From assembly GCA_016930435.1 (NCBI GenBank), contig JAFGGQ010000144.1, positions 1-7,889 on the forward strand: 7,889 bases of DNA, read 5' to 3'. This document shows positions 79-7,666 of the stretch, piece after piece; the stretch's first letter is position 1, and each line of letters begins with the position of its first letter. Origin of the DNA: a bacterium (lineage in GTDB: Bacteria > UBP14 > UBA6098 > JAFGQG01). Below the pieces are notes generated by a model. The model had not been told where the DNA came from, did no database searches, and saw nothing but the letters and a program-made list of their open reading frames with translations. The position numbers and the translations under genes are program-made.

Positions 79-852
79 CTACAATTTGGGAATTATTAGC
101 TCAGCGGCTTTCTTTCCGGATAAGAACATCCCTCCGAAGATAGGACCCATCCTGGGTCCCCCTGATACCGCACAGGCGCACATACCAGCAACACATAACC
201 CCGGTGCCACCTCCCGGGTCTGGTCCACCACAAAATGCTCTCCCTCCTCCGCATTCATTGACTTCTCCCCTGATACAATGCCCTCTTCTGTATCCAAAGA
301 GATTCCACTCTTTCCGGCTACTATGCGGGACACCTCTGAGGGATGACCGGTAGCATCTATTACATAACGGGTCTTTATTGTCAAGGGATCAATATGCAGC
401 TTGCCCATCTCTACAACTGACCAGTTTAATACTAATCCTGATACCCGGTTTTGATCAACCATAATATCTTCTACTGTGATCAGATTAAATATCTCCAATC
501 CCGCCTGACAGGCTTTCGAGGTAAGAGTGGAAACCGCTTCAACCGCATTTGCCCAGTAATAGTTATCCTGATATTTGTGGTAATTGATGTTGAATTCCTG
601 AAGTATAGGCAGTGCATTTTCTTGGACTACAATAATATTGAACATCATGCCTCCACCCCACATTCCGCCCCCTATGGATAGTTTCCTTTCAAAAAGGGCA
701 ACTTTAAACCCCTTTTGAGCCAGGTAATAACCAGCTACCAGACCAGCCGGGCCACCCCCCACGATTCCAACGTCCAGATCAAGATTACGAATCAGCTTAC
801 GGGAATACTCCTTAATTATAATCTCGGATATGATGACTTCATCAAGCTTCAT
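79..852 (-). CDS. thi4: Thi4-type thiazole synthase, sulfide-using (His) form
   Basis: This cytosolic enzyme makes the thiazole half of thiamin (adenylated carboxythiazole) from NAD, glycine and a sulfur source. The 257-aa length is full for bacterial and archaeal Thi4. Visible motifs are an N-terminal Rossmann nucleotide-binding loop GGGPAG (residues 32-37), the acidic end of the second strand FER (54-56), a Gly-rich loop GGGMWGGG (61-68), LHIDP (152-156), DATGH (166-170) and the C-terminal RMGPIFGGM (224-232). In the yeast suicide enzyme the sulfur-donating Cys205 sits in CCMDP. The aligned residue here is His153, as in the methanogen enzymes that use free sulfide catalytically with iron, so a non-suicidal mechanism is inferred. 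The ATG start has a GGAG site 5 nt upstream. It begins 15 nt after the stop of the exosortase-associated membrane gene, so co-transcription is likely. No TPP riboswitch fits in that gap. Such proteins are often labelled ribulose/ribose-1,5-bisphosphate family by mistake. Confidence 0.93.
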
Positions 853-867
853 TTTTACTCCATTCTT

Positions 868-1398
868 CTATCGGTTCTTTCTGCTAAATTCAGAAATAAA
901 GTTGTTTATCCCACCTTTTTTCCTTAGTATCAGTAAAAACCACAAGGCTATTGGAAGCAAGGTCAGGAATACACCATCCATAAATATTTTAATTCCGTTA
1001 ATCGTACTGGACTGGGATATGTAAAGGATCAAAATGATAGATAGCGCAATAATGTGGAATATAACAAGGATCAGATAACCCAGTCCCAGACCCACTATTT
1101 TGCTTTTTTTATCAAGTTTCGTTGCCAGGGTTAATGCCGTAAATGGAATTATATTTGCGGTTAACCCCCCTACTGCTATCTTAAGATCTGCCCTTAAAGC
1201 ATAAACCCTGAACAAAATATCTTCGCCTTTCACCCAAAGCACATCGATCTGGCCTTTGAATATTGGAATAATTCTGGAAATAATTGCCATAATATGACCA
1301 ATTATTCTTAGATAATAACCTTCCAGCGCGAAAGCCCATACAAAGAAAGCCAGTACAGTAATGCCAAGAAATTTAAGAAGGAAGAGTGTTTTTCTCAT
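868..1398 (-). CDS. Exosortase-associated multi-pass membrane protein
   Basis: This is a 176-aa inner-membrane protein with no catalytic motif that I recognise. Hydrophobic segments lie at about residues 5-25, 73-93, 100-127 and 140-158. A soluble stretch at about 40-72, probably outside, separates the first two, and the C-terminus is basic (ending FSRKNR). The start codon overlaps the stop of the exosortase gene as ATGA and has no Shine-Dalgarno sequence, so translation is probably coupled to the exosortase. The order exosortase then small membrane protein matches what is known for XrtH and XrtF systems, where an associated 150-180-aa membrane protein follows the transpeptidase. Length and topology also fit, but I cannot confirm homology by alignment. 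Its role is unknown and is inferred to be a partner or assembly factor for the exosortase. The gene is AT-rich compared with the giant gene upstream. Confidence 0.72.
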   Translation of the reverse strand: MRKTLFLLKFLGITVLAFFVWAFALEGYYLRIIGHIMAIISRIIPIFKGQIDVLWVKGEDILFRVYALRADLKIAVGGLTANIIPFTALTLATKLDKKSKIVGLGLGYLILVIFHIIALSIILILYISQSSTINGIKIFMDGVFLTLLPIALWFLLILRKKGGINNFISEFSRKNR

Positions 1399-1967
1399 TT
1401 TGATTTGACTATTTTATCGACCCATATAATCCAAATAAGGATAACAAATACTATAAAGGTGCCCTGCCACAGGTAATTATGGATAAAATCGAACGCAGGT
1501 TTTGATTTGATACCTACCCAGGCTATTAGAACCAGGCGAATAATGTTCATTAAAAATATGCTGATCAATCCTATCAGGTGCCCCAAAAGCTTTTCTTTCC
1601 ATTTAGAAGGATAAGCCAAAACGCACGACGAATAAATGAAGAATGCAAATCCACCAGTACATTCGTACACGATCTGAAGGGAGATTGTGCCCAGATTAAT
1701 AACATCTCCAAAAATAGCGGCTTCTATCCCCAATAAGGAAATGATCCAAAACACAACCCGGGCGGTTCCGCTCTGAATCAGAAAATTAACTTTGTCGGGT
1801 AGAATAAAGTAAAGGAATAAATACTCTAAGGCTGCAAACAGCACTACCAAAAGTACAAACTTAAGTACCTTTTTCTGAGTTTTTTTTTTACGGGTTTTTT
1901 TGCAGCCAAGATTGATCTCCTGGAATATTATAAAAATATTTAAGTAGGGTTGGAACGGTTGTTCCAA
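1395..1967 (-). CDS. Exosortase family transpeptidase, short XrtH-like type
   Basis: This integral-membrane cysteine protease/transpeptidase is predicted to cut C-terminal sorting tails of exported proteins at the outer face of the inner membrane. In the 190-aa reading, hydrophobic segments lie at about 34-56, 70-87, 104-120, 127-153 and 168-183. The three family catalytic residues are visible: Cys103 in VYECTGG, Arg144 in MNIIRL, and His163 in FDFIHNYLWQ. The short length, the AYPSKWKEKLLG loop and the HxYLWQ ending resemble XrtH rather than long EpsI-type exosortases. The 5' end is doubtful. The only standard in-frame start upstream of the first helix is TTG at 1967-1965, which lies inside a hairpin and has no spaced ribosome site. 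A good site (AGGAG, 1917-1921) sits 7 nt before a TTG at 1909-1907 that is one frame off and is separated from the body by A7 and A10 runs. The gene lies between the mini-protein and the membrane partner. Confidence 0.88.
   Translation of the reverse strand: MEQPFQPYLNIFIIFQEINLGCKKTRKKKTQKKVLKFVLLVVLFAALEYLFLYFILPDKVNFLIQSGTARVVFWIISLLGIEAAIFGDVINLGTISLQIVYECTGGFAFFIYSSCVLAYPSKWKEKLLGHLIGLISIFLMNIIRLVLIAWVGIKSKPAFDFIHNYLWQGTFIVFVILIWIIWVDKIVKSK
1917..1921 (-). promoter_or_regulatory. Probable exosortase ribosome binding site
   Basis: AGGAG lies 7 nt before a TTG at 1909-1907. That TTG is not in frame with the exosortase body as sequenced. One extra A in the A7 run (1901-1895) or the A10 run (1889-1880) would join them, giving a short basic N-terminus beginning Met-Ala-Ala-Lys-Lys before the first helix. 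Confidence 0.45.
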
Positions 1968-1975
1968 CCCTACTT
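1942..1975. repeat. Perfect 15-bp inverted repeat (hairpin) between mini-protein and exosortase
   Basis: AAGTAGGGTTGGAAC (1942-1956) and its exact reverse complement (1961-1975) flank a 4-base loop GGTT. The hairpin starts 26 nt beyond the mini-protein stop and overlaps the first codons of the longest exosortase frame. On the transcribed strand the stem is followed by AAATATTTTTATA rather than an immediate T-run, so it is not a classic intrinsic terminator. It could be an attenuator or mRNA-stabilising structure that lowers exosortase expression relative to its putative substrate, or a small REP/MITE-like insertion. An 8-bp direct repeat TGGAATAT (1921-1928 and 1983-1990) flanks it. Confidence 0.85.
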
Positions 1976-2001
1976 CTATCTATGGAATATCAATCTGAAT
2001 A

Positions 2002-2175
2002 CTAATCTTTCTTCTTGATAATCCTGTAAACGCCGTAACCAACAGCGCCAACAGCGATCACCGGGATAGCGATCAGGCCGATAGGCACAGTTTCAGGAGA
2101 ATGTGGAGGACCAGGCTGAGCCCAGAGAGCAGTAAAACTGCCCAGCAGAGTTATAATACCTAGTACTTTTTTCAT
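2002..2175 (-). CDS. 57-aa mini-protein, putative exosortase substrate
   Basis: From the N-terminus the protein has a signal peptide (residues 1-19, MKK then a hydrophobic core ending ALWA, predicted cut before Gln20). Next come a short Pro-rich segment (20-31, QPGPPHSPETVP), one transmembrane helix (about 32-53, with the GYGVY motif near its end) and a basic tail KKKD. A Pro-containing motif, a helix and a basic tail make the tripartite layout of exosortase/archaeosortase targets. The exosortase gene follows immediately. It recalls very short Bacteroidota proteins with PGPP and PIDxG followed by an Ala/Gly-rich helix, but the exact motif here is PETVPIG. I chose ATG at 2175-2173 because AGGAGG (2184-2189) lies 8 nt upstream; a longer TTG frame from 2202 would place that site inside the gene. 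If cleaved at both ends, only about 10-15 residues would remain. The alternative is a small single-pass membrane protein unrelated to sorting. Confidence 0.8.
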   Translation of the reverse strand: MKKVLGIITLLGSFTALWAQPGPPHSPETVPIGLIAIPVIAVGAVGYGVYRIIKKKD

Positions 2176-2245: not shown

Positions 2246-5200
2246 TTACTTTATAATCACCATTTTCTTTTTGTCAAGGAATTTTTCTGTTTTCATCTCA
2301 TAAAAATAGATTCCGCTACCTACTTCGCTGCCTGTATTTGTTCTGCCGTCCCACATTATCTGATAATAACCGGCATTCATATCCTCGTTTACCAGGGTTT
2401 TTATCTCCTGCCCAAGAATATTGTAAACAGACAGTTTAACGTGGCTTTCCTCCGGTACGGCAACCTTGAAAGTAGTTGTCGCATTGAAAGGATTGGGAAC
2501 GTTCTGATGCAGAGCAAAGGTGGTAGGCAGTGTCTCTTTTTCCTCGATATCGGTAGCAATTCCATAAGTAGTAATGCGGAATGTGAATTCATGAAAAGGA
2601 GTAGTAGGTGTAAATGTATAAGTTGTATCCACATCGGTTCTCATATCAGTCTCAACTCCGCTGTGCTCATCGATCAGGGTGAAGGTATATCTGGTATCAA
2701 TATTATCGATTCCAAAGGACGCATCATCTACGGATGGGATATGAACTTTAGGCCAGACAATGCTAACGGTTCGGCCGGGGGTCAGTGTACCGCATTCGAT
2801 GGTGAAATTCCATTCTTTAACACCTTCGAAGATGGGCCGGGTATCCCTGCAGAATTCACCATCATCACCGGGGATACTGAAGTAAGCGGGTATAATGCTG
2901 GAACCCGGAGGAGGTTCAATTGGGCAATCAAATACATCTGAATTATCCCAGCCATCGAGAGCGGATTGAGCAACTGAAATATAATTATAGCGATCCCAGA
3001 TCCAAGCGCCACGATAACCCTTGATGCTGACCCTCAGGTTAAACGGAGGAAGCAAATCGGTCATAGCTGTTTTAAGGAAGGTCTGGTTTTTGGAATCCCT
3101 CTCTGTTTTGGGAGCTACTTTCTCCTCCACAAATTCAGGTTGGGCTTTAAGCATAGCTGTGGTCCCGCTCATTTTCATGGGCAGAATACCATATCCTGCC
3201 AATCCGGGATTAACCGCGGCAAAGAAGCCCCTCCAGGGGTTAATATAACGAGGTGCGCCGCCTGGCACGCCTGGATTATAGAATGCCCACCCACGAGGAG
3301 TCCAGGTGAAATAAGTCTGGTTCATGTTGAAGAATTCAGGGTCCATTACCACTGCATTCCAGTCCAGCTTCCTGTTGAAAGCATTTCCGACCAGATGCCA
3401 ACCCGCAAACCTTGGCGCGGAATGATAGGGCAGGGTCAACAGTGTATCCGTTTCATAAGGATTGCCCGTAACATCAAAAAGCGTTCTCCAGGCCCAACTG
3501 CTCAGATAATAACCCACTGCGCGTTCCATGTGACTGGGAAGGTAATATGTAGCATCTTCAGGATTATAGGCATAGATACTGCTTCTTGTTGGTGAATAGT
3601 AGAATGGTATTATATCATCGCTGAGCTGGGCATAGAAATCGTTAGGATCGGCATCTACGGGGAATGCAACCAGGTTCCAGCCCTGATTCAAGCTGGGAGC
3701 AACGTTCAAGCGAACGGGTATTCGGACCGGGGGTACCTGATCGGTAACATAGAGGTAGATGTCGAACTCATATAATCCGGGGAGAGGGTCTTCATCCTGC
3801 ACTATTATACGGATGGTAACGCATTCTCCAGGATTCAGTGAACCGCTCATTGGATCGATAGATACTGCCGGAGGCAATACCGGGAATCCGGTATCGATTA
3901 CGAATACCGTATTCAATGACTGGCAGGCATACCAGATTCTGCCAAGATAATCGACTTCCAAACCCGCGCCGCCGAAACCTGTGCCATCACCGGGCGGGAA
4001 TATGGTATTGATTACTTCACCTGTTTCAGGATTCACTTCCTGGATCATATCAGATGCAGCATTATGGCTGATCCATACTGTTCTGCGACCGGCATGCCAA
4101 CCTAAGCCAGCTACAGAGAATGGTACTGCAAAGGAATCGATAATGGTGCCCGGGGCAGCCCATGAAGTCCCGCGTATCTTGTAAACCTGGTTCATCCACC
4201 AGCCACCGATCCAGAATACATCTTCCTCAGGATCGTATGCCAAGCCTCTTTGGTTAGTGTAAGTCCAGGGTCCTCCAAGTGAATCCACCACTGCCCCAGT
4301 AAGACGGTCCCAAGCATAAATCTTGTTAGTTCCGCCCACGGCGACCTGCCACATCTTTTCGCCATCCCAGGCCATATCCGCGGCAAATACCCCGCACCAG
4401 GGGGCGGTATCATGATGAATACCCGTATAACTGCCGTCCTCCATGCTGAAGGCAAAATTATGGTTGGTACCGCGGTCTATAGCCGGGTCACTGACCCAGA
4501 AGTACTCATCTCCCTGTAAGCCCAGACCCCATGCCAGACTTACCGGGGAAATCCAGGTAAGATCATAGGCGGCTACAATATCCCCATAATCCATTGTTCT
4601 CTTAATACTACGGGGATCAGAGATACCTTCCGGATCACGGGTTACCGAGGGGACATCATTTCGGGGACGGTCCAGTACAGAACTCATTTCAGTGAATTCA
4701 GGAGTTTCCGTTAATGGACGTTCCCATATTATGCCACCGCCCACAGGGGAAAAGTAATAATCAATAACGCTGTTGGAGGTATTGCAAAATTCAAAGAAGA
4801 GGGTATCGGACCCTTCATAGGAAACGTCGCCTTCGATAGGAATCTCTATCTCTATGGGATAGAGGTAGAGATCGGCATAGGTCGTAAAGCCTTCATAAAC
4901 GACTACATTGGTATAAGCCGAGAAGTAACCGGTCATGTGTCCGCCCAGCTCAACCATACCTATAGGGGCTTGAGGAAGGAAGAAATATCCGGTCTCATCG
5001 GTGTAATCGCTGCCGCCGGCGGCTACTACACGGGCGCCGTCAAGGGGTTCGAAGGTAGTGATGTCATAAACACGGCCCTCGATGCTTCCGGAAGGCCATG
5101 AATAAGCTTCAAAATCATCCACATACCAGCCAGGATGAGAATTGACTAATTCATCGCTGCAGAAACGGAAGCGGATATGTGTAACAGCGCCATTTAAACC

Positions 5201-7666
5201 GGTAAGATCCATCATGACCTGGGTCCAGGTTGTCATGATTCCTGAGTAAGCAGGTTGACCTGCAATCGGACTGCTAAAAAACGTACTTATAACACTGGGA
5301 TATCCGGCAGGAGGGGTCCATAGATCCCAGGATCTGCCGTTATTGATGGAGGTATAGATCTGCCCACCGTCAAAGTTGGTTTCCATATTATACCAGTGCC
5401 AGAATGTGAAGTAGGAGGTAGGGGATGTAAGTGGGACGTCCAGTGTCCAGTCGGCCAGATCCACGCCGTAATTAGCAGTGAGCACCGTTCCCCAGCAATT
5501 GGGGGCGGAGTGAGCGGGATCAGGACCAGGAGCGCCGGGCATTCCCCATTGCCATCCTCCATCCGGTGGAAATGGAATCAAACCGCCGTCATCATCGTCG
5601 AAATCTTCTACCCACCAGGGCACAGCAGGATCCAGGAAGAGGGTATCCACATAGGTGGTTTCGGTTTCATTCACGGTAATAGTCTGAGCCTCGGTGGTAT
5701 AACCAAATTGAGTACCAATGACGCTATACATTCCGGCTTCAACGGCATCAAAGAAGTAACCGCCGGCAGCATCGGTAACGTCAGCCAGTCCGGTACCCTG
5801 AAGTATAATATTGATACCCGGGTCGCCCAGTGGGCCGGTATCGGTGAGATCGGCAAAACCCTGTATATAACCTATGGGCATTCCCATCAGATAGAGATCA
5901 ACCCAGGCGGTATCATCTACAAGAACGGTAACCGCAAATGCTGTGTCGGGATAGAACCCGGCAAAGGTTCCGATCACGGTATATGTACCCGGGGGCACGT
6001 ATGGGAATATAAAGTAACCGGTAGCATCGCTGAAAACGAATGTTCCCAGTTCATCTACGGTAACCTGGATATTGCTGTGGTCAACCCGGCCATCCAGGAG
6101 TGCGATACCCTCGATACCTCCGCTTGGGGGCGGGTCCGTGGTGAACTTTATCGCGCGGCCATTGGCCAAACCGGCGGCATCAGGATGTAAAGTACCATTA
6201 TAAAGGTATTGATAGCCATATAGCTGGGTTTCATCTTCCAAACCAACTGAGCATCCTGTCGGTCTTGCCACAACATTATATTGAGTAACGATCTCTCCAT
6301 TGCCACCGAGGGCGGTGTAATAGTCCGGATCGTAGATAATTGCCTCAAAGGTTTCCGGATCACCGCTATAGTAGTGATGACATTCTTTCCATTCCACGAT
6401 GAGGTAGTGATTTACGGCATCATAACCAACGTAAATATCCCCGCCATAGCCGGGGTTAAGATCATCCCAGAAAGGCGCAACAATACAGTCCAGATTGTCT
6501 GCATCGGGCATTGGATCGTTAGTAAAATCAGATACAGTACTTGGCCGGGTAAAAGTGATCCGGCCGTTAGTAGAGACGAAAATGGTGTCGTAGTCAGTGC
6601 CATAGAACCGGAAGGTAAATGGCATGATCCAACCCGCCCAGTTATCGTCCTCGTCTCCCAGTGTACTGGGAGCTACGACGCCTTGCAGTTCGATCCAGTT
6701 GTACACCGGGGCTTCGGGGTAAAGGTCAACATCGTCATAGGCAAAATATTCACCGATCACGGAGAACTGGAAAGTATCGGTAGTTGCGCAATTTCCGGAG
6801 GTGTCGCAGGCGGTAATGAAGTAGCGGATGATGGTCCAGTCGGATTGACCGGGGATAAAGTTTTGGAATGCTGCTCCGCCAAGGAAGTTCATAAGTATCC
6901 GGGTAAAACCTCCGCCTGTACTGTAGTAGAGGAATGAGCTATCGGGTTCTAAAGCAACATTATCAGTAATATTAGCATCTATCTGGTACTGGAGCAATCC
7001 AGGGGCCTGATTACCCAGAGGGGTATGAGTGATAATTGGGGGATCGAAATCGCCGGGAGGTGCAAAGCCCATGATCTCAACGCTATCAACAGCCCAGTAG
7101 TAATCATTATCTCTTTTATAAACCCATCCGATTCGGAATGAATCTGAGGCGGCAACCCATGCGGAAATATCGAACCACATGTCTTCGGTAGAATCGATGG
7201 ATGCTCCGATAGCAGAATACTCCCAGATCTGGTTTTCCCAGTCAAGGGTGTCGCCAGCTACAGTCAAGGCGTTTGGGTTTTGGTCAAAGACGATGTACAT
7301 ACTTCCGGTGCCCGAGCTCCAGGTTCGCCAGCGATGCCGGAAGGAAAAATGCACGGAGTCATAGACGCCGGGATACATCACCGGGGACATCAACCAGTCG
7401 TTGTGAATCACGCTAGAGCCGACGTAACGGATGGCTGCTGCCAAACCGAATTCAGCGGGGGCAATGGGTGCTCCGGACTGGTACCAGTCTTCCTCCCCTA
7501 ACGTCGGGTTGCTACCGCCAGCCATAGTATCCCATCCTGCCGGTAAAAAAGCTCCTTCGAAATCTTCAATCAAAAGCGTATCAACTGTCTGGGCGTTAAT
7601 GCAGGGGACAACCATCAATACCACCACAAAAAGCATAGCCACTGACAGCAAGGCCTTATGAGACAT
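2246..7666 (-). CDS. Giant secreted multidomain beta protein with FlgD-like C-terminal sorting domain
   Basis: This 1806-aa exported protein has a signal peptide (1-25, cut after INA). Domains in order are as follows. There is a cleaved-adhesin/MAM-like jelly roll (about 28-200, from IEDFEG to WAVDSVEI), an Ig-like segment (205-305) and a nidogen-like module (306-510, with FVSTNGRITF and APFWDDLNPG). Two carboxypeptidase-regulatory-like beta sandwiches follow (515-594 and 598-679), then a second jelly roll (685-857, from WWVEDFD to GWYVDDFEAYSW) and a third regulatory-like sandwich (858-940). The rest is a propeller-like region (1035-1260), an Ig-like segment (1261-1323), a module beginning GWNLVAFP (1325-1500) and a C-terminal FlgD-Ig/type IX-like domain (about 1706-1806, starting at HQNVPNPFNA and ending KKKMVIIK). 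I see no protease or glycosidase motif, so adhesion or a surface-layer role is inferred. The ATG has AGGAGG 5 nt upstream. It is more GC-rich than its neighbours. Confidence 0.92.
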   Translation of the reverse strand: MSHKALLSVAMLFVVVLMVVPCINAQTVDTLLIEDFEGAFLPAGWDTMAGGSNPTLGEEDWYQSGAPIAPAEFGLAAAIRYVGSSVIHNDWLMSPVMYPGVYDSVHFSFRHRWRTWSSGTGSMYIVFDQNPNALTVAGDTLDWENQIWEYSAIGASIDSTEDMWFDISAWVAASDSFRIGWVYKRDNDYYWAVDSVEIMGFAPPGDFDPPIITHTPLGNQAPGLLQYQIDANITDNVALEPDSSFLYYSTGGGFTRILMNFLGGAAFQNFIPGQSDWTIIRYFITACDTSGNCATTDTFQFSVIGEYFAYDDVDLYPEAPVYNWIELQGVVAPSTLGDEDDNWAGWIMPFTFRFYGTDYDTIFVSTNGRITFTRPSTVSDFTNDPMPDADNLDCIVAPFWDDLNPGYGGDIYVGYDAVNHYLIVEWKECHHYYSGDPETFEAIIYDPDYYTALGGNGEIVTQYNVVARPTGCSVGLEDETQLYGYQYLYNGTLHPDAAGLANGRAIKFTTDPPPSGGIEGIALLDGRVDHSNIQVTVDELGTFVFSDATGYFIFPYVPPGTYTVIGTFAGFYPDTAFAVTVLVDDTAWVDLYLMGMPIGYIQGFADLTDTGPLGDPGINIILQGTGLADVTDAAGGYFFDAVEAGMYSVIGTQFGYTTEAQTITVNETETTYVDTLFLDPAVPWWVEDFDDDDGGLIPFPPDGGWQWGMPGAPGPDPAHSAPNCWGTVLTANYGVDLADWTLDVPLTSPTSYFTFWHWYNMETNFDGGQIYTSINNGRSWDLWTPPAGYPSVISTFFSSPIAGQPAYSGIMTTWTQVMMDLTGLNGAVTHIRFRFCSDELVNSHPGWYVDDFEAYSWPSGSIEGRVYDITTFEPLDGARVVAAGGSDYTDETGYFFLPQAPIGMVELGGHMTGYFSAYTNVVVYEGFTTYADLYLYPIEIEIPIEGDVSYEGSDTLFFEFCNTSNSVIDYYFSPVGGGIIWERPLTETPEFTEMSSVLDRPRNDVPSVTRDPEGISDPRSIKRTMDYGDIVAAYDLTWISPVSLAWGLGLQGDEYFWVSDPAIDRGTNHNFAFSMEDGSYTGIHHDTAPWCGVFAADMAWDGEKMWQVAVGGTNKIYAWDRLTGAVVDSLGGPWTYTNQRGLAYDPEEDVFWIGGWWMNQVYKIRGTSWAAPGTIIDSFAVPFSVAGLGWHAGRRTVWISHNAASDMIQEVNPETGEVINTIFPPGDGTGFGGAGLEVDYLGRIWYACQSLNTVFVIDTGFPVLPPAVSIDPMSGSLNPGECVTIRIIVQDEDPLPGLYEFDIYLYVTDQVPPVRIPVRLNVAPSLNQGWNLVAFPVDADPNDFYAQLSDDIIPFYYSPTRSSIYAYNPEDATYYLPSHMERAVGYYLSSWAWRTLFDVTGNPYETDTLLTLPYHSAPRFAGWHLVGNAFNRKLDWNAVVMDPEFFNMNQTYFTWTPRGWAFYNPGVPGGAPRYINPWRGFFAAVNPGLAGYGILPMKMSGTTAMLKAQPEFVEEKVAPKTERDSKNQTFLKTAMTDLLPPFNLRVSIKGYRGAWIWDRYNYISVAQSALDGWDNSDVFDCPIEPPPGSSIIPAYFSIPGDDGEFCRDTRPIFEGVKEWNFTIECGTLTPGRTVSIVWPKVHIPSVDDASFGIDNIDTRYTFTLIDEHSGVETDMRTDVDTTYTFTPTTPFHEFTFRITTYGIATDIEEKETLPTTFALHQNVPNPFNATTTFKVAVPEESHVKLSVYNILGQEIKTLVNEDMNAGYYQIMWDGRTNTGSEVGSGIYFYEMKTEKFLDKKKMVIIK
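2250..2277 (-). promoter_or_regulatory. Sigma70-like promoter for the mini-protein/exosortase cluster
   Basis: On the minus strand, TTGACA (2277-2272) and TATAAA (2255-2250) are separated by 16 bases. The whole element lies within the last codons of the giant gene, where the -35 box encodes Leu-Asp of the LDKKKMVIIK tail. A start near 2243 would give a leader of about 68 nt before the mini-protein ATG. No terminator separates the two genes, so read-through from the giant gene may add to expression. Confidence 0.55.
4859..6121 (-). repeat. Three related carboxypeptidase-regulatory-like domains within the giant protein
   Basis: Three protein-level repeats lie at residues 516-594, 598-679 and 859-936. 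Each starts with an IEG/IQG strand and contains D-x-x-G-(G)YFF/YFIF followed by a Gly-containing turn and a hydrophobic strand. Copies 1 and 2 are tandem, and copy 3 follows the second jelly roll. They probably act as rigid extracellular spacers. Confidence 0.7.

Follow-up and report, generated by a model that had tools for sequence, protein, structure and literature searches.

Exosortases usually serve many large proteins, and their chemistry is hence hard to assay. In the 7,889-nt stretch of DNA analysed here (the window; contig JAFGGQ010000144.1 of an uncultured bacterium from the phylum UBP14), the gene directly before an exosortase encodes a protein of only 57 residues, with a signal peptide, a Pro-rich motif, a helix and a KKKD tail. 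This raises the question whether an exosortase may be dedicated to one very small substrate. The open reading frame (ORF) described in the original prediction, hereafter the mini, was confirmed, and we consider it likely, judging from comparative sequence analysis, that the mini is the substrate of the adjoining exosortase and that the two form a dedicated one-substrate system. The features of the locus are listed in Table 1.

Table 1. Coordinates of the features identified in the window and the evidence for each
Feature	Position	Strand	Evidence
Giant, 1806 aa, with type IX secretion type A tail	2246..7666	-	TIGR04183 30.4 bits, cut-off 23
Mini-substrate (predicted), 57 aa	2002..2175	-	ORF; homologues in 4 other genomes
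Perfect 15-bp palindrome, resembling a terminator, in the gap from mini to exosortase	1942..1975	-	z -6.0
Exosortase, about 171 aa if started at TTG 1909 and with A10 read as A11	1395..1909 (approximate)	-	TIGR04178, Pfam, AlphaFold
A10 homopolymer breaking the exosortase frame	1880..1889	-	sequence
Exosortase-associated membrane protein (partner), 176 aa	868..1398	-	overlaps exosortase stop
Thi4-type thiazole synthase	79-852	-	TIGR00292 304 bits

On the minus strand of the window, the order of transcription is the secreted giant, the mini, the exosortase, the partner and the thiazole synthase. The giant lies directly upstream of the mini, with a gap of 70 nt; in the loci read, 17–76 nt separate the mini from the preceding gene for a protein with a type IX tail, and in one family (f2) a second, shorter gene of this type is found between the giant and the mini. 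The ATG of the mini is preceded by a good ribosome-binding site (AGGAGG). The encoded sequence, MKKVLGIITLLGSFTALWAQPGPPHSPETVPIGLIAIPVIAVGAVGYGVYRIIKKKD, comprises a signal peptide (aa 1–19) ending at an A|Q junction, a Pro-rich linker (aa 20–29), the motif VPIG (aa 30–33), a hydrophobic helix (about aa 34–50) and the basic tail RIIKKKD. The five minis are 52–57 aa long, and the homologues are 55–72% identical to the mini of the window. All five have A|Q where the signal peptide ends, together with VP[IV]G, AIPxIAV and YG[VI]Y and a Lys/Arg tail. Between the genomes G000 and G001, the signal peptide differs at 7 of its 19 residues and the linker at 4 of its 10, as compared with 5 of 28 for the C-terminal part; the latter (VP[IV]G-helix-KKK) is the best-kept region of the mini, and the pattern named in the original prediction is thus not lost in the homologues beside exosortases. 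Wherever both rates could be computed, dN was lower than dS in all three genes of the cassette (mini, exosortase and partner), the mini being under purifying selection. The layout suggests that processing would leave a mature peptide of 9–14 residues, in line with the 10–15 residues proposed originally. Such a short, poorly conserved product is odd for a sorted protein, which counts against the mini being a substrate.

The distribution of the three genes, sampled in five genomes from three families, argues for the pairing of mini and enzyme. The mini, the exosortase and the partner were each identified in the same five of 17 phylum genomes (G000, G001, G002, G005 and G013), the mini in one copy per genome, and all are absent from the other 12. 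The order of the genes (type IX-tail gene, mini, exosortase, partner) is constant in all five, and its recurrence in the four phylum genomes other than that of the window indicates that the mini-exosortase pairing is not due to chance. The family f4 provides a clean insertion/deletion boundary: in G013 the giant is followed by the mini, the exosortase, the partner and a 103-aa PaaD/MIP18-like gene, while in G004, G007, G009 and G011, which lack the cassette, the same 103-aa gene follows the giant. Over the f4 loci with and without the cassette, this gene was located in L005:2543-2854, L084, L086, L091 and L092. Such presence or absence between shared neighbors implies gain or loss of the three genes en bloc, and the dedicated pairing proposed at the outset is thereby upheld. 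Searches with the mini model against 369 genomes of other phyla returned no match, and no homologue of the mini without an exosortase was detected among the 381 other genomes searched. The sister locus L042 has no mini, and no minis were found beside exosortases of other phyla, where neighbors with such tails are larger and several of them IPTL-like. In a genome of another phylum (G024), an XrtH exosortase adjoins a protein with an IPTLSEWG tail (L007), and a second locus (L006) pairs an exosortase like that of the window with a member of the same partner family but lacks a mini.

The enzyme itself is confidently assigned to the exosortase superfamily (NCBIfam TIGR04178: 53.7 bits, cut-off 23; Pfam Exosortase_EpsH, PF09721: 54.4 bits, cut-off 25.7). 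C80 (the Cys of ECTG), R121 and H140 do not vary across the 24 aligned relatives, and the AlphaFold model has a mean pLDDT of 94. A search of the genome contigs with the single exosortase sequence gave no match and was repeated with an alignment as the query. A single exosortase was found in the genome of the window. In a tree in which the deep branches are unsure, the five mini-linked exosortases (that of the window and a single row for each of four genomes) form a clade of their own (support 99/92), apart from XrtX. As a side observation, an exosortase domain was also encountered inside two very long open frames (L044:3908-5887 and L063:3854-5668; 660 and 605 codons), which may encode fusion proteins.

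None of the subfamily models of exosortases accepts the enzyme of the window at its cut-off. The closest counterpart is PID-CTERM (NF046080), found above the cut-off in 47 of 296 Bacteroidota genomes with up to nine copies per genome. The PID-CTERM proteins that were read are mostly 59–75 aa long and have the form signal peptide-AQPGLPSAPSQAPIDGGLGLLAAAGGAYAIKKLRDKK; like the minis, they are tiny proteins with a signal peptide ending in AQ, a Pro-rich linker, a P-I motif, a Gly/Ala-rich helix and a basic tail. The Bacteroidota locus L142 has a PID-CTERM mini, next to it XrtX (186 bits, cut-off 170), and then a membrane protein with a sub-threshold score for the XrtX-associated family NF046082 (58.8, cut-off 75), i.e. 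the order seen in the window; this cassette lies beside what look like polysaccharide genes. Alignment of the mature part of the window's mini with the PID-CTERM family by hhalign gave 88% and a score of 27.5 (controls: IPTL tails 17.8, 30 column shuffles at most 12.0, reversed alignment 8.4). However, the motif of the minis is VP[IV]G followed by [LI]AIP, whereas PID-CTERM has PIDGG, and the window's cassette has one mini per genome and lies beside a type IX cargo gene, with no apparent polysaccharide genes next to it. The mini of the window did not match NF046080 (E <= 10, cut-off 26), nor did any protein in G000, G001, G002 and G013, and the exosortase reached 63.6 bits on the XrtX model (NF046081, cut-off 170). 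Since neither the mini nor the exosortase reaches the curated cut-off of its PID-CTERM/XrtX family, the cassette looks like a parallel variant of that kind in another phylum, not a member of it. The uniqueness implied by the title of the original prediction is not supported, as tiny exosortase-type substrates had already been catalogued as PID-CTERM, beside XrtX, in Bacteroidota.

Other systems are more remote. XrtH with IPTLxxWG-CTERM resembles the cassette in the small exosortase and the arrangement of motif, helix and basic tail, but the IPTL-like proteins encountered are at least 158 aa long (L007, L036), the enzyme scored 71.6 bits on TIGR04177 (cut-off 86), and the motif is VPIG, without IPTLxxWG. 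Of the suggested conserved neighborhood with XrtH-like exosortases, the neighborhood was recovered in five genomes and the assignment to XrtH was not, while the statement that the motif is neither PEP-CTERM nor IPTLxxWG agrees with both the family models and the motif comparison. The best-scoring subfamily is archaeosortase B/VPXXXP-CTERM (TIGR04144: 105.5 bits, under the cut-off of 150), whose motif, by the family name, also starts with VP; however, that system is archaeal, and VP[IV]G has no second Pro at the corresponding distance. Flavobacterium XrtF likewise combines a small exosortase with an associated membrane protein in type IX-secreting bacteria, but the window's exosortase reached only 32.5 bits on the XrtF model (cut-off 90). 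Deletion of XrtF or of its associated membrane protein abolished zorbs and strongly reduced biofilm, the substrates of XrtF being unknown according to the same study (PMC10936215).

Is the mini the only protein handled by this exosortase? Searched with the mini profile, the window's genome gave a single copy, the next best match having an E of about 2, and a scan for a signal peptide, a C-terminal helix and a basic tail over 1.11 Mb (39% of the genome) produced five crude ORFs, all lacking the motif. Substrates that are long and have diverged at the C-terminus may reside in the remaining 61%; from these searches the mini is probably the sole substrate. Or perhaps the mini is no substrate at all, but a small regulatory or structural subunit of the exosortase complex, i.e. 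a two-helix membrane peptide acting as an active-site decoy or as a stabilizer of the pair formed by enzyme and partner? Its strict one-to-one occurrence and adjacency with the exosortase, the better conservation of its helix and motif than of the exported part, and the lack of any other substrate in the searches would all suit such a role, which we nonetheless regard as unlikely: the succession of motif, helix and basic tail matches known sorting signals, and the multi-copy minis of PID-CTERM fit substrates better. The expected amounts of mini and enzyme argue in the same direction. Every distinct locus has a terminator-like hairpin between the mini and the exosortase (z -6.0, -5.9, -3.7 and -2.4). 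The palindrome core TAGGGTTGGAA..TTCCAACCCTA is identical in G000 and G001 and occurs once per genome, between the mini and the exosortase (at about 1982-2011 in L002), with stem-end pairs altered on both sides between the two genomes. Together with the grouping of the mini with the surface-protein gene, the hairpin suggests that far more mini than enzyme would be made, that is, a low ratio of enzyme to substrate, which speaks against a subunit.

The start of the exosortase gene presents a further peculiarity, as its frame is not continuous from the likely TTG start, which is preceded by AGGAG (1917-1921). Translation of the window begins with (M)AAKKPVKKK and loses the frame at the A10 run. 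The counterpart from a second genus, G001, begins with (M)AKKSKKK and loses the frame at its own A10 run, situated at the identical offset (L002:1918-1927, minus strand). Addition of one A to the run (A10 to A11) restores proteins of 171 aa in the window and 170 aa in G001, and the restored starts match the MASKK/MAKSK starts of the exosortases from G002, G005 and G013. Runs of A10 are rare in the two genomes with the exosortase run (8 and 13 per genome), and that in the exosortase gene is, as far as the contexts show, the only one common to both; the chance of an A10 within a given 60-nt stretch is about 1e-4, raised by the Lys-rich start. For tssM1, poly-A slippage was proven to restore the frame at about 20% (PMC4256274), and conserved A runs have been proposed as a mark of purposeful slippage (PMC1088944). 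The run may accordingly be regarded as a candidate site of transcriptional slippage or a phase-variable switch, though two coinciding assembly errors are also possible, as is initiation at a downstream TTG inside the first helix. If the A10 is taken as sequenced, the window's enzyme would be N-terminally truncated.

The 176-aa partner had no hit in the family-model search, which included NF046082 (cut-off 75), and a homology to the XrtX-associated protein was rejected, as no alignment to the L142 partner was obtained. Of the 57 loci fetched, about 40 have a member of its family immediately behind a related exosortase; the loci in which the family follows an exosortase include some of Zixibacteria, Myxococcota and Gemmatimonadota. 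The AlphaFold models of the partner (mean pLDDT 92) and of the exosortase exhibit a matching order of elements (one or more long helices, three strands, a short helix, helices), and the alignment of the two profiles spans 134 columns (92.7%, score 48.3; locally shuffled controls at most 22.7, reversed 12.6, the rotated alignment being uninformative as a control since a local alignment survives rotation). No solved structures resembling the exosortase or the partner were found. The partner family has no invariant Cys, no invariant Arg and no invariant His at the catalytic position, and the ECTG block of the exosortase lies in a gap of the alignment. Such features suggest that the partner is probably a catalytically dead homologue of the exosortase.

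Combination of these results suggests a putative mechanism for the mini as a substrate. The mini would be made together with the large surface protein encoded upstream and exported by Sec; signal peptidase I would cut at the A|Q junction, so that the trimmed protein starts with a Gln able to cyclise, while the C-terminal helix would hold it in the inner membrane. The exosortase Cys would then attack at or near V-P-[IV]-G, the helix and the lysine tail would be dropped, and the Pro-rich peptide would be released or transferred to an acceptor, with the dead homologue probably pairing with the active enzyme. A more elaborate version, in which a surface peptide of ~12 residues, possibly capped by pyroglutamate, is produced by a pair of active and pseudo-exosortase, the enzyme dose depending on the hairpin and, at A10, on programmed slippage or phase variation, is offered tentatively, as its joint truth appears rather doubtful.

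Two special cases of the substrate mechanism concern the fate of the peptide, and each is, in our estimate, improbable. One is peptide export or signalling, with a free Pro-rich pGlu-PGPPHSPETVP... serving as a signal, adhesive or antagonist. The exported part of 9–14 residues with its invariant initial Gln is compatible with this, and N-terminal Gln is converted to pyroglutamate in Bacteroidetes, but this Q-rule is not general outside Bacteroidetes (PMC5837995), the peptide is poorly conserved between genera, receptor, transporter and immunity genes are absent nearby, and the process linked to exosortases is surface sorting, by analogy with LPXTG/sortase, and not the release of peptides (PMC1569441). 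No better placed is the anchor donor, in which the mini peptide would be moved onto another molecule, such as the giant secreted by the type IX route or its glycolipid anchor: the cassette always lies directly behind a giant-related type IX-tail gene, in three families with differing downstream genes, yet the giant is found in 16 of 17 phylum genomes, with or without the cassette, and 15 of the 17 have PorU (the usual type IX sortase) above its cut-off. Both are therefore independent of the cassette, which is not needed for display of the giant.

If the mini is indeed the dedicated substrate, one enzyme and one 57-residue protein moving as a unit would come close to a minimal exosortase system, in which substrate, enzyme and partner could be co-expressed in a laboratory host, and the cleavage site and the acceptor read directly by mass spectrometry. 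The cassette would extend the sorting of tiny proteins beyond Bacteroidota, the partner suggests that some exosortase-associated membrane proteins may be dead copies of exosortases, and the A10 run may represent a case of transcriptional slippage or phase variation controlling protein sorting.
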